Assembly: GCF_024055725.1 (NCBI RefSeq)
Contig: NZ_JAMXMX010000005.1
Location: 1-64,000, forward strand
DNA length: 64,000 nt
Direction of reading: 5' to 3'
DNA from: Actinoallomurus spadix
GTDB lineage: Bacteria; Actinomycetota; Actinomycetes; Streptosporangiales; Streptosporangiaceae
Shown: positions 46,290-51,092 of the stretch, one piece after another
Position numbering within the stretch: position 1 is the first letter of the stretch
Layout of the letters: every line of letters begins with the position of its first letter
Notes under the pieces: model-generated
The model's database searches: none
Told to the model about the DNA's origin: nothing
Seen by the model: only the letters and a program-made list of their open reading frames with translations
Position numbers and translations under genes: made by a program

Positions 46290-49200
46290 TCACAGGTAAT
46301 GGCCGAGGCGCTCGTCGCGGTCGGCGGGCGCGTCGGTCTCCGGCAGGTCCGCCGGCCGCAGCAGGCGGATCTCCTCCCGGTCCGGCGCCTCCTGCCCGGT
46401 GATGCGCTGCGCCTGCAGGGCGACGGCGCGGTCCAGGAGGTTCCGCATGAGCCGGGCGTTGCCGAACGACTCGCCGCGGGCCGCCGCGCGCAGCCGGGAG
46501 CGCACGGCGTCGAGCACGCCCTCGGCCACCTGGAAGCCGGCGTCGGCCGCCATCACCTCGAAGATCGCCACAAGCTCGTCGTCGGTGTAGTCCGGGAACC
46601 GCAGGACGGTCGGGAACCGTGAGGCGAGGCCCGGGTTGAACTCCAGGAACCGCAGCATCGGCCCTTCGTAGCCCGCCACGATGACGACGAGGTCGGCGCG
46701 GTGCTCCTCCATCAGCTTGAGCAGCTCGGCGATCGCCTCGTGCCCGTAGTCGCGTCCGGAGTCGGCGGGTGTCAGGGCGTACGCCTCGTCGATGAACAGC
46801 ACGCCGCCCAGCGCCCGCTCCACCGCCGCGCGGACCTTCGGCGCGGTCTGCCCGACGTACTCGCCGACGAGGTCGGCGCGGGAGACCTCGACCAGGTGCC
46901 CGGACGACAGGAGGCCCAGCTTGGCGTAGACGGCGGCCAGCAGCCGGGCCATGGTGGTCTTGGCCGTGCCGGGGTTGCCGGTGAACACCATGTGCCGCGT
47001 GGGCGAGGCGATCGGGATGCCGGCGTCGCGGCGGAGCTGCTCGGCCTTGGCCTCGGCGACGAGCAGGCGCACCTCCTGCTTGACCGCGTCCAGGCCGATC
47101 AGCCGCTCGATCTCGGCGAGCGGGTCGCCGGGCAGGTCGATGTGGCCGGCGGCGGCCAGCGTGCCCGGGATGTCCTCGGCGAGGATCTCGTCGAGGGACT
47201 CGTCGTCGGTGAGCACGCCGTCGTCGAGGACGCGCCGCGACTGCATGGCCACCGCGCGGTCCAGCAGGTTGATCATCAGGCGGGCGTTCCCGGCGGCCCG
47301 GTCGCGCGCCCCAGCGCGCACGAGGTCGCGGACCTTGTCGAGCACGCCCTCCCGCAGTGCGAAGCCCGCGTCGGCGGCCTTCGCCTGGAAGATCTCGATG
47401 AGCTCGTCCTCGGTCAGGTCGGGGAACCGCAGCTGCTTGGGGAAGAACGCCGCGAGTTCCGAGTCGCTCTTCAGCAGACCGTTCATCGCGCCCTCCGGCC
47501 CGCACAGCACGACGATGAGGTCCTCCGGGTGGGCCTGCACGGCCGCCAGCAGGACGTCGATCGCCTCCCGGTTGCGCGGGGAGTCGCCCGGCATGAGGTT
47601 GTGCGCGTCGTTGATGGCCAGCACGCCGCCGTGCGCGCGCTCCACCGCCCGGCGCACGCGCGGGCCGCTCTCGCTGACGTACTCCCCGACCAGGTCGGAG
47701 CGGTCCACCTCGACGAGGTGGCCGGAGGACAGCACGCCGAGGTCGGCGTAGATGCGGCCGAGGATGCGCGCGACCTTCGACTTGCCCGTGCCGGAGTTAC
47801 CGGTGAAGACCAGGTGTCTCGGCCGGGCGGCGACCGGCATGCCGGCCTCGCGGCGCATCCGGGCGGCCTCGGCCTCGGCGACGAGCAGGCGCACCTCGTT
47901 CTTCACCGACTTCAGGCCGACGCACGCGTCGAGCTCGGCCATCGGATCGGCGTCGGCGGCGCCGCCGGGGATGACCCGCTGCGGCAGATCAGCGACCGCG
48001 ACCTCCGTCTCGCCGCGGGCGGCGGCCGCCGCCACGCACTGCTCGGCGAGGTACTCCACGAGGCGCGCGCCCCGCAGGTTCAGCAGCGGCGGAGTGCGGG
48101 ACAGCAGCAGCCCGGCGGTGACCGCGGCCTCCCGGGCGGCGGTCAGCCCGCGCCGGGCGACGGCCCGCCGGAACAGCTCCGCGTAGTCGTCCTCGGCGAA
48201 CTCCCGCGTGCGGGCGATCCGGAAGTGCTGGTGCAGGGCCGGGTTGACGTCGAAGATCCGCTCGTCGCCGCCCGTGCGGCACGCCGCGACGACGTGCAGC
48301 TTCTGGTGGCGTTCGAGGACGCGGCGCAGCTCCTCGGCGAACGCCCCGCCGCAGTGCTCCAGCGCGAGGATGCGGTCGAGGCCCTCGATGACGAGGACGC
48401 GCCCTTCGAGGCACTCGCGCACCCGTGCGAGGAAGTACAGGATCGTGTCGCTGACGTGGAGGTTCGCGAACACCTGGTCGGAGACCCAGACGGCCTCGCG
48501 GACGTCCCCGCGTTCGGTCAGGGTCTGCTCGACGATCCGGATCGCCGTGCCCTTGCCGGTCGCGTCCGGCCCGCTGAGCAGGAGACGCACCGGCCGCGCG
48601 GACTCTCCGGTCCGCAGGACGTCGCCGAGCGCCGTCACGATGTCCGGCTGGCCGACGAGGCCGGCGCCGGTCTCCTCGGCCGCCGTCGCGGTCCGCGCCT
48701 CCTCGGCGGGCGGCACGCCGGCGAACCGCGCGGTCAGCGGGTTGACGACCGTACGGGCGCGGAAGAGGCGGCGCAGGTCCGTCTGGAAGCCGCGGACGGG
48801 CAGGCGGCTCTTCGGGCTCACGGCGCTGTCGGGCAGGCCCTGCGCGCATCCGGTGATCCGCAGGCCCATGTCCAGCCAGGCCCGGCAGGCGTCGGCCTCA
48901 CCCGCGACGAGGCCCCGGGCGAGCCAGGACCGCACCTCCGCCTGCCACGGGTCGGCGCGGAAGCCCTCCCGCAGGTGCTGGAAGCGCTCCTGGACGCTTT
49001 CGTACCGCTCGACGCCGATGGCGAACGCGAAATCCGCGGGCACCGCCGCCACGTCGGCCTGCAACAGCAGCCGCGCCAGCCCGGTCACCAGCGGGTCGCC
49101 GCCCGGGACCGCCGCGAGCAGGCGCTCGTGCGCGGCGATCCAGCCGGCGCACGCCCAGGTGAGATAGCCGGTCGGGCCGGCCAGCTCCGGCAGCGCGGAC

Positions 49201-49817
49201 ACGGTCTCGTCCGGCAGGTCCGACGCCCACACCCGCTCCAGCTCGCCGTGCGGCGTGGTCAGGTCGCGGGCCCGCAGCTCCGGGTCCTCCGCGTGCCGGT
49301 CGAAGAGCGCGATGAGGGCCCGGCGGCGCTCCTCCAGCGGCGGGATGCCGGCGAACACGTCGAGGGACTCACGGCCGAGGGCGAACATCGTCTCCCGGAG
49401 GGCGATGTCGTCACCGGCGTTCTCGACCAGCCACAGGCCGGGCGGCCGCAGCCGGCCGCCCTGGCTGAACCAGGCGACCGGGTCGCGGACCGGGGGCTCG
49501 GGCTTGGCCAGGAACTGCGTGAGCAGCTCGTAGTCGATGTCGCCGCGCGAGCCGGCCCGGAGCGCCGCCGCCCCGAGCAGGAAGGTGAGCAGCGACCACA
49601 GCTCCGCGCCCGCCGCGGAGGTGCCCGCGGCGTAGAAGTCACTGAGCCCGCCGGTCAGCGCCCGGGCGCGCTCGTCGGCGTCGAACGCGCGGGCGCGCTC
49701 GCGGACCTCGTCGTACAGCCCGTCGGGGACCCGCCAGGGTCCGTACGCGTAGACGTCCAGAACGGGTTCTTCGGTCAGCAGCAGTTCGAGGTGTTCCGGT
49801 AGGCGTGGGGGGCTCAC
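46290..49817 (-). CDS. Large protein with three AAA-type modules (CbxX/CfqX-like)
   Basis: 1175 residues. N-terminal helical region (1-390, no family), then three ATPase modules. Module 1: Walker [10 protein letters not shown] (416-424), Walker B-like [11 protein letters not shown]. Module 2: Walker A GNSGTGKS (673-680), Walker B position LAINDAH (733-739), where the expected D-E is N-D, so hydrolysis is doubtful. Module 3: Walker [10 protein letters not shown] (947-955, Ala for Gly), Walker B LFIDEAY (1007-1013) intact. Modules 2 and 3 resemble CbxX/CfqX and the EccA ATPases of type VII secretion, but no ESX genes are nearby. GTG start, 48 bp after a Phd/YefM antitoxin gene on the same strand. 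Confidence 0.88.
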
Positions 49818-49865
49818 GACGTAGACCTTACGACCGACCGGAGGAGGGTCGCAGCCCTCTGGAGA

Positions 49866-50165
49866 TCAGCGCTCCCAGTGGGGACGGCCGGAGGGGCCGG
49901 CCTCCCGGTGCTCCGCCGCGATGCGCATCGGGCCGGCCGGGCGCGGCGCCTGCTCGGGCTCGGGCTCCGCCTCGGCGGGCAGCGACAAGGTGAAGCCGAT
50001 CTCCGCGGGCCGCCGCTCCAGCGCATCGAGGTCCTCCACCGGCACGAGGGCCGCGAGCGGCTTGCCGTGCCGGGTGAGGAGGATGCGCTCGCCGGTGTAG
50101 CCGACACGGTTCACGAGCTCCGCCAGGTCGGCCCGGGCCTGCGTCACTGGGACCTCTCGCGTCAT
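49866..50165 (-). CDS. Phd/YefM-type antitoxin-like protein
   Basis: 99 residues. The N-terminal Phd/YefM fold is clear: REVPVTQARADLAELVNRV, then YTGERILLTRHGKPLAALVP and VEDLDALERRP. The C-terminal 35 residues are Pro/Glu/Arg-rich and could be toxin-binding or disordered. No RelE/Doc/PIN toxin gene is adjacent; the next gene in the same direction is the triple-AAA protein 48 bp away. Upstream is the divergent promoter with a TTCTGTACAGAA palindrome, which fits autoregulation by a Phd-type protein. Confidence 0.87.
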   Translation of the reverse strand: MTREVPVTQARADLAELVNRVGYTGERILLTRHGKPLAALVPVEDLDALERRPAEIGFTLSLPAEAEPEPEQAPRPAGPMRIAAEHREAGPSGRPHWER

Positions 50166-50179
50166 GCAGGAATTCTATC

Positions 50180-50210
50180 ATTCTGTACGTTCTTGTTATT
50201 CTGTACAGAA
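50180..50210. promoter_or_regulatory. Divergent operator between antitoxin and ClpP
   Basis: A perfect 12-bp palindrome TTCTGTACAGAA at 50199-50210, plus a direct copy of its left half (ATTCTGTAC at 50180-50188 and 50198-50206, 18 bp apart) in an AT-rich patch. Antitoxin start is 33 bp to the left, ClpP start 75 bp to the right. It does not match the LexA or ClgR consensus. Confidence 0.6.
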
Positions 50211-50285
50211 CTCGCCCCGGCGCAGGAGCGCGCCGGCGCGTGGACTCGGCCGCGCGCGCCCGCGTGCGGCAGCGAAGGAGCGCAG

Positions 50286-50903
50286 ATGGATTTCCCGACT
50301 CTCCACCCCCGCGCGCGGGTCACCGAGATCCCGCAGGACGTCCACTCCCAGCAGCTCTTCCAGCGGCTGCTCGACCAGCGGATCGTCTTCATCGGCTCGG
50401 AGATCGACGACGACCTGGCCAACCGGGTCTGCTCCCAGTTGCTGCTCCTCGCCGCCCAGGACGGGGAGCGCGACATCAAGATCTTCATCAACTCGCCGGG
50501 CGGGTCGATGGACGCGATGTTCGCCATGTTCGACGTGATGCGGTACCTGCCGAACGACGTCTCGACCGTCGCCCTCGGCATGGCCGCCTCGGCCGGGCAG
50601 TTCCTGCTCACGGCGGGCACCCGCGGCAAGCGCTACGCGCTGCGCAACACGCGGATCATGATGCACCAGCCATCCGGCGGGATCCGCGGCACCGCCTCCG
50701 ACATCCGCATCCAGGCCGAGCAGAGCGTGCACATGAAGCACCGCTTCCTGCAGCTCATCGCCGAGCACACCGGCCGGCCGTACGAGCAGATCGAGCACGA
50801 CGCCGACCGCGACCGCTACTTCAGCGCCGAGGAGGCCCGCGAGTACGGCCTCATCGACCACGTCGTCACCAGCGCGCTCGAGGCCGGGGGCGTCGCCCCG
50901 TGA
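50286..50903 (+). CDS. clpP: ATP-dependent Clp protease proteolytic subunit (ClpP)
   Basis: 205 residues with the full catalytic triad: Ser102 in GMAASAGQFLL, His127 in IMMHQPSGG, Asp176 in DADRDRYFSAEEA. It carries the longer actinobacterial N-terminus (RARVTEIPQDVHSQQLFQRL). No clpX or tig neighbours, so this is a secondary ClpP, like the ClpP3/P4 pair of Streptomyces. ATG at 50286 with AAGGAGCGCAG upstream. The stop overlaps the GTG of a second, deleted clpP. With its partner lost, it would have to form a homomeric or mixed barrel. Confidence 0.95.
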   Translation: MDFPTLHPRARVTEIPQDVHSQQLFQRLLDQRIVFIGSEIDDDLANRVCSQLLLLAAQDGERDIKIFINSPGGSMDAMFAMFDVMRYLPNDVSTVALGMAASAGQFLLTAGTRGKRYALRNTRIMMHQPSGGIRGTASDIRIQAEQSVHMKHRFLQLIAEHTGRPYEQIEHDADRDRYFSAEEAREYGLIDHVVTSALEAGGVAP

Positions 50904-51092
50904 CCGGCCTCACCGCCCGCTACATCCTGCCCTCCCACGTCGAGCGCACAGGAGACCATCCTGGCCCGCCACACCGGCCGCCCGGCCGAGCAGATCCGCG
51001 CCGACATCGAGCGCGACCGCTACCTCACGGCCGAGCAGGCCCGCGAGTACGGCCTCATCGACGAGATCATCACCAGCCGCAAGCCCGGCTGA
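50900..51092 (+). pseudogene. Second clpP, internally deleted
   Basis: GTG (overlapping the upstream stop as GTGA) begins TGLTARYILPSHVERT, the N-terminus of the partner ClpP. At about 50950 the frame jumps by deletion: the remaining sequence, in another frame, is QETILARHTGRPAEQI, then DIERDRYLTAEQAREYGLID ending SRKPG, the normal ClpP C-terminus. The catalytic Ser and His region (some 400 bp by family length) is gone. The C-terminal part resembles the intact neighbour, so recombination between the two copies may have caused the loss. Confidence 0.9.

Follow-up and report, generated by a model that had tools for sequence, protein, structure and literature searches.

A Phd/YefM-like gene linked to a divergent accessory clpP across a phased GTAC array in actinobacteria: a probable stand-alone repressor

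Antitoxins are known as substrates of the Clp and Lon proteases. Here we describe an antitoxin-like gene of the Phd/YefM type (phd) that stands next to a Clp peptidase gene in a 64,000-nucleotide stretch of Actinoallomurus spadix (positions 1 to 64,000 of contig NZ_JAMXMX010000005.1, assembly GCF_024055725.1; hereafter the window), with an accessory clpP on the opposite strand and an operator between them. The operator of YefM in Escherichia coli holds two TGTACA cores 12 base pairs (bp) apart (PMC7730913, PMC4803016), and the partners of Phd in a comparative survey of type II systems are Fic/Doc, PIN, RelE and a MazF-like family, with no mention of Clp in the accessible part of that survey (PMC2701414). 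Streptomyces lividans contains clpP1P2, clpP3P4 and a monocistronic clpP5 (PMC9765437). Its PopR is an activator that ClpP1P2 breaks down, and clpP3P4 is thereby switched on once ClpP1P2 fails (PMC12607617). PopR is a paralogue of ClgR with the site TCTGCC-3N-GGCGAATCTGCC-3N-GGCAGA, and two extreme C-terminal alanines, described beside PopR, are a degradation signal in ClgR and Lon (PMC9775585). In the locus described here, the Phd/YefM domain quite likely works as a stand-alone repressor of its own gene and of the accessory clpP operon, acting through an array of GTAC boxes.

The linkage was summarized in three surveys, which overlap in some genomes (L150-L152 are genomes G002, G004 and G003); about 1.5 kb of flank was read in the family and class surveys and 3 kb at the named loci. 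A profile of the eight Actinoallomurus Phds gave 64 strong matches in 297 genomes of the family Streptosporangiaceae (E up to 1.5e-13, a cut set after seeing the gap to 4.9e-10). ClpP lies near Phd at 59 of these 64, and at 57 the two are divergent. All of the 30 best matches have a divergent ClpP, and 29 of the other 34 have ClpP matches nearby, two of which are degenerate (L122, L123). Among the 36 weaker family matches listed, 26 were fetched, some of them on short contigs, and none has ClpP beside Phd. The named loci are the best 80 of 469 and so are biased to close relatives; at 75 of them a ClpP is present no more than 3 kb away, in each case upstream of phd on the other strand, with a few at 1-3 kb (e.g. 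L177, L215). They come mostly from Streptomyces, and also from Kitasatospora, Dactylosporangium, Planosporangium, Microtetraspora, Actinomadura and Thermomonospora. A class sample of 394 genomes contains 38 strong matches (E up to 5.7e-22, cut at a gap) and 23 weaker ones. ClpP is found at 30 of the 38 (three already met in the family survey, then 22 of 27 and 5 of 8), once about 1.1 kb off, and at none of the 12 weaker matches examined. The unit spans at least three actinobacterial families, namely Streptosporangiaceae, Streptomycetaceae and Micromonosporaceae. At locus L123 (genome G008), remnants of Phd and ClpP, both degenerate, share one strand and apparently represent a decaying copy of the unit.

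GTAC occurs in all 57 family stretches between phd and clpP and in all 66 stretches from the named loci. These stretches represent 57 of the 64 family matches and 66 of the 80 named loci (those without ClpP, or with a gap >400 bp, were dropped), and some of their ends are the start of a BLAST match, not the true clpP start codon. The 49 family stretches outside Actinoallomurus contain 68 GTAC pairs exactly 9 bp apart and 34 pairs 18 bp apart, while dinucleotide shuffles of the same stretches contain a mean of 0.155 pairs at 9 bp and at most 2. In the wider set there are 66 pairs at 9 bp. As a guard against kinship, all stretches were thinned to 47 that share <25% of 8-mers; these hold 63 pairs at 9 bp (shuffle mean 0.185, maximum 2), and 44 of the 47 have a 9 or 18 bp pair, compared with at most 4 in shuffles. 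Both the linkage and the array, together with the joint presence of array and regulator, can be read directly from the sequences. On this reading, what is conserved as a unit is phd together with the divergent accessory clpP operon and the GTAC array that separates them. The initial annotation of the window had pointed to an antitoxin-like gene and a divergent ClpP gene sharing an operator, and both the linkage counts and the array show this arrangement to be widely conserved.

Within the window, the phd gene, the 1175-amino-acid (aa) AAA gene 48 bp downstream on the same strand (gap at 49818-49865) and the divergent clpP are all present as that annotation described them, according to open reading frames (ORFs) and Pfam matches. 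The features are as follows.

49866-50165, minus strand: phd-like gene, 99 aa (PF02604, E=1.7e-14)
50172-50199, minus strand: predicted sigma70-type promoter of phd, overlapping the operator (consensus match only)
50181-50210, no strand: putative operator with two TTCTGTAC boxes, GTAC at 50185-50188 and 50203-50206 (motif search)
50286-50903, plus strand: accessory clpP, first gene (ClpP1-like), 205 aa, with an intact Ser-His-Asp triad (PF00574, E=2.7e-71, 239.6 bits)
50903-51092, plus strand: remnant of the second clpP (ClpP2-like), from alignment with genome G001, where the gene is whole (Pfam fragment 140-181)
46290-49817, minus strand: AAA gene, 1175 aa, GTG start (ORF), with a helical N-terminal region and AAA modules of the CbbX/SpoVK/EccA type

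The two operator boxes are 18 bp apart. TTCTGTACAGAA, a perfect palindrome at 50199-50210 that holds the second GTAC box, occurs a single time in the 8.0-Mb assembly. The pattern TTCTGTAC-N(8 to 12)-TTCTGTACAGAA is present in exactly 8 of the 297 family genomes, which are the eight Actinoallomurus, once in each and always as N10. In every one of the eight, TTCTGTAC-N10-TTCTGTACAGAA lies between phd and clpP, and in the window's genome it is the sole site even when 3 mismatches are allowed. The core between the two genes is nearly invariant across Actinoallomurus. One sigma70-type promoter site was found for phd, against a mean of 0.0 in shuffles. The shared operator first noted is therefore real and beyond chance, but it consists of two GTAC boxes 18 bp apart and not of one palindrome.

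The regulator carries a Phd/YefM DNA-binding domain at about residues 1-53 of 99, with PF02604 as its only match, and all 20 members of a diverse Phd alignment match PF02604. PopR and ClgR have a helix-turn-helix (XRE-type) DNA-binding domain, which is not among the matches of the window Phd. The PDB profile matches of the N-terminal half are Phd, RelB1 and RelB2 (best chain 9g12, 9.4e-9; P1 Phd, 4.7e-5). In the AlphaFold2 model, the block means of the predicted local distance difference test (pLDDT) are 80-92 in residues 1-50 and 45-58 in the tail, which is probably disordered according to this model; a fold search with it returned antitoxins as top matches, but weak ones (best E 0.04). The divergence of the tail is seen directly in the sequences. 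In the window Phd the tail motif is PMRIAAEHR, and the protein ends in HWER, so that IAA is internal and the C-terminal alanine pair of the ClgR type is absent. A strict pattern of the C-terminal (R/G)IAA-type motif is found in 124 of 144 Phds; two of the other 20 are truncated and the rest are close variants (IAAH, ITAE). None of the 26 weaker Phd matches has the motif, three of those being too short to show one. The segment EIGF in Phd, which we take to resemble a ClpP-docking tripeptide, was considered as a docking clue and dropped: it is invariant in the eight Actinoallomurus Phds and not in 22 other loci.

No toxin was found downstream of phd in 10 loci, for which the largest coding-looking ORF of each was scanned and small ORFs were not. 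The genes in this place are non-toxin genes at the scanned loci and vary by lineage: a dehydrogenase, GDPD, two FAD enzymes, a hydrolase, an ABC protein, an AraC-type regulator and an ABC-2 membrane protein, as well as urease gamma in two Streptomycetaceae. The ABC protein also matches AAA_21, labelled 'putative AbiEii toxin', with a score below that of ABC_tran. At the window locus the downstream place is occupied by the AAA gene, in agreement with the earlier remark that a conventional toxin is missing there.

A tree of 59 ClpPs places the window ClpP together with its Streptosporangiaceae counterparts in one clade (100/96) among ClpP1, and the second gene of the pair forms a clade (98/99) among ClpP2. 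The Phd-linked single ClpPs of Streptomyces, Kitasatospora, Planosporangium and Microtetraspora make up a separate clade (98/86). The Phd tree has a roughly matching split with many weak forks. An exception is L113, whose Phd falls weakly in the second group while its ClpP pair is of the first type. Judging by these trees, a single Phd subfamily is combined with ClpPs of two lineages that are not orthologous, a ClpP1-like pair in one and a ClpP5-like single gene in the other. Two clpP pairs are present besides the Phd-linked single gene in both S. pyxinae and S. parvulus, so by elimination this single gene is probably clpP5.

The Ser-His-Asp triad is complete in 58 of 58 first genes of the pair, 19 of 47 second genes and 30 of 71 proteins of the single type, as counted from single alignment columns in which individual calls may err. 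In the wide set of Phd-linked single ClpPs (L153-L229, mostly Streptomyces), it is intact in 25 of 66. Such loss in the single ClpPs suggests a non-catalytic ring subunit. Compared with G001, the second clpP of the window, which the initial annotation does not mention, lacks about 420 bp internally, and what remains no longer reads in frame; all that G002 (L048) retains is a short C-terminal piece, and the other six of the eight Actinoallomurus have a second ClpP match of normal length. Elsewhere, the window genome holds two more clpP pairs, on contigs C28 and C10, besides a distant homologue. The second gene of the accessory pair on contig C10 (L301:7608-8198) has Ala in the catalytic Ser column. 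As for a PopR candidate beside this pair, no obvious helix-turn-helix gene was seen by eye among the listed ORFs, and no family scan was run.

We infer binding, repression and proteolytic control from these features, and the mechanism could be as follows. A Phd/YefM DNA-binding domain, no longer paired with a toxin, would have turned into a transcription factor that acts alone. It would bind GTAC boxes phased at 9 bp, and the bound Phd would repress its own promoter and that of the accessory clpP operon. The whole gap between phd and clpP is only 60-63 bp in five Actinoallomurus species, so that a clpP promoter can only overlap with the array or be located farther upstream. Since the array covers the predicted phd promoter, and the clpP promoter overlaps the array or reads through it, binding should repress both. 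A lowered level of Phd, most simply through proteolysis of its disordered tail, would then switch the accessory ClpP on. For comparison, the half-life of RelB2sca of S. cattleya is reported to be shorter with four of six ClpPs plus ClpX, in the accessible part of that study (PMC4989188).

Several points weigh against this mechanism. No ClpP match exists in the flank read for 5 of 64, 5 of 80 and 8 of 38 Phds, although one of the 8 is on a truncated contig and, among the 5 of 80, a ClpP start is visible by eye at L180. At the Streptomyces loci L179, L181, L210 and L213 there is no ClpP, and the 400 bp upstream of phd hold no GTAC pair spaced by 9 or 18 bp; with array and clpP missing together in these four, the regulator is sometimes found without the array. 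Three of the 57 family arrays are also without a 9 or 18 bp pair. The position of the operator fits repression yet is compatible with activation, and a repressor degraded by Clp would be wired opposite in sign to PopR. A toxin may act in trans, with the tail perhaps binding an unlinked one, or be encoded by a small ORF beside phd. Moreover, one Streptomyces YefM examined in E. coli was degraded by Lon and not by ClpP (PMC6521030). Counted in favour of the mechanism are the ClpP-less Phds of G065, G254, G266, G310 and G333, which form one clade in the Phd tree. Their loci (L114, L116, L117, L118, L120) have a divergent gene that looks MFS-like by eye, with TGTAC boxes between, and here the boxes have stayed with the regulator.

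Other explanations of the pair were compared with repression by Phd. Activation of the accessory clpP operon has a functional analogy in PopR, which acts in this way on clpP3P4 of Streptomyces (PMC12607617), and in the other Streptosporangiaceae loci the first box is indeed far from phd (median 66.5 bp). Nevertheless we consider it unlikely: YefM represses its own promoter (PMC7730913), the predicted phd promoter in Actinoallomurus is covered by the array, and in five species of the genus 19-22 nt separate the end of the array from the clpP start. It is very unlikely that the gene encodes an ordinary antitoxin whose toxin lies elsewhere, with clpP adjacency as inherited synteny without function. 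The N-terminal domain is a normal Phd/YefM domain, as such an antitoxin would have, but the tail has a motif of its own and the phased array is conserved with the pair; besides, the neighbours are two ClpP lineages and a transporter-like gene, while the other surroundings are variable.

The remaining explanations involve the AAA gene, which the initial annotation had taken for an effector controlled by the antitoxin or an unfoldase linked to ClpP. A toxin-antitoxin-like module, in which Phd checks a harmful AAA effector, could be suspected from the short gap on the same strand in the window. Within the genus, phd stands between clpP and AAA in all eight genomes, and phd and AAA are adjacent at 48-186 bp in seven of them: six with both genes whole on one contig, and G002 with a gap of 57 bp, where the AAA gene is split over two contigs. 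In G006, however, they are separated by 4,057 bp with other ORFs between. A survey of antitoxin-AAA synteny, chosen beforehand as the refuting test, found the pair unlinked outside Actinoallomurus. In other genera, 10 AAA loci from nine genomes were read, the full-length ones among the matches listed (149 genomes), and all 10 are without Phd or ClpP within 15-17 kb. In G008, G027, G055, G072 and G073, AAA and a close Phd homologue are on different contigs. Outside the genus, none of the 56 strong family loci has an AAA match within about 1.5 kb of Phd. AAA is thus unlinked from Phd and ClpP outside the genus, and therefore a role as effector or as dedicated unfoldase is not supported. We give the module almost no credence. 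It is highly improbable as well that AAA serves the adjacent accessory ClpP as its dedicated unfoldase. The neighbourhood in one genus and the Walker A motifs retained in AAA2 and AAA3 speak for it, but Pfam, NCBIfam and the PDB point to CbbX/SpoVK/EccA instead of a Clp ATPase, no Clp-ATPase-specific domain is among the listed Pfam and NCBIfam matches (the best are SpoVK, CbbX and EccA), and a simple pattern search for docking tripeptides, a weak test, gave six loose matches and no canonical one. The AAA gene is, judging by its distribution, a lineage-specific neighbour outside the phd-clpP unit, and it may be co-transcribed with phd in Actinoallomurus.

Pfam recognises two AAA and two AAA_lid_6 stretches in the AAA protein. 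It had been described as a triple-AAA protein, against the two modules that Pfam sees; the first of these three modules is degenerate, and its recognition is weak. The C-terminal module matches CbbX (3zuh, 8.3e-61) and EccA1 (9lur, 2e-48) in the PDB. In NCBIfam the protein is below the EccA cut-off (TIGR03922, 376.1 bits vs 466.65) and nominally above that of SpoVK (TIGR02881, 454.8 bits vs 422.95), the latter score being a sum over two stretches of the 1175 aa for a profile of 261 positions. The N-terminal region is all helical, with no convincing PDB fold match (best E=0.38). An antiphage function was considered and rejected: PADLOC IetA (1.2e-11) and NCBIfam IteA (33 bits vs a cut-off of 510) hit the generic ATPase core only.

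At the 10 loci of other genera, a LytR-CpsA-Psr gene is near AAA in nine. In seven, AAA lies downstream of a small GTPase gene and at least one more member of a kinase/Roadblock/DUF742/GTPase cluster; L044, the only locus so checked by Pfam, has all four (HATPase_c, Robl_LC7, DUF742, ATP_bind_1). This cluster upstream of AAA is conservon-like in L038-L042, L044 and L046, with the LytR-CpsA-Psr gene on the other side of AAA. No GTAC pair at 9 or 18 bp was found in the 300 bp before AAA in other genera. Genome G044 contains two full-length AAA copies on different contigs (L044, L049).

If Phd is the repressor proposed here, a former antitoxin would govern a Clp peptidase gene, whereas antitoxins are otherwise known as prey of Clp and Lon. 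It would be a candidate regulator for the accessory clpP of Streptomyces (probably clpP5) and of many Streptosporangiaceae, with a Phd/YefM domain that probably acts by itself as a transcription factor; further regulators may be concealed among actinobacterial genes annotated as 'orphan antitoxin'. More tentatively, the locus might form a toxin-less circuit, in which Phd, as a Clp/Lon substrate through its IAA-type tail, governs an often catalytically degenerate accessory ClpP that serves as a regulatory ring subunit. We regard this circuit as conceivable, with the balance tilted against it. If it is true, the cell would tune the composition of its Clp protease by way of how stable a former antitoxin is, and one clade would have redirected the regulator and its GTAC boxes to a transporter-like gene.

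No description of the Phd-clpP pair was found in the literature searched, a body of text that leaves out most subscription journals. Among known proteins, the AAA neighbour resembles CbbX/SpoVK/EccA in its C-terminal module but is larger, with several modules and a helical N-terminal region. The clpP5 of Streptomyces is likewise a single accessory clpP gene, and the accessible text of its report mentions no regulator or operator (PMC9765437). PopR of Streptomyces lividans is similar in function, as a dedicated regulator of an accessory clpP operon (PMC12607617, PMC9765437, in their accessible parts). It is an unrelated protein, while the regulator described here has a Phd fold, goes with GTAC boxes and is probably a repressor, and in the ClpP tree the Phd-linked pair does not group with the second Streptomyces pairs. 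Like YefM of yefM-yoeB and Axe of axe-txe, the regulator has the Phd/YefM fold and TGTACA cores that overlap its own promoter, here a predicted one, according to the sections available (PMC7730913, PMC4803016). The differences from them are that no toxin gene was seen beside Phd, the C-terminal tail is another one, and the divergent neighbour is clpP; the boxes are phased at 9 or 18 bp in Phd-clpP loci and are 12 bp centre to centre in YefM. What appears new is thus a known DNA-binding domain and a known operator core in a new role and with a new phasing.

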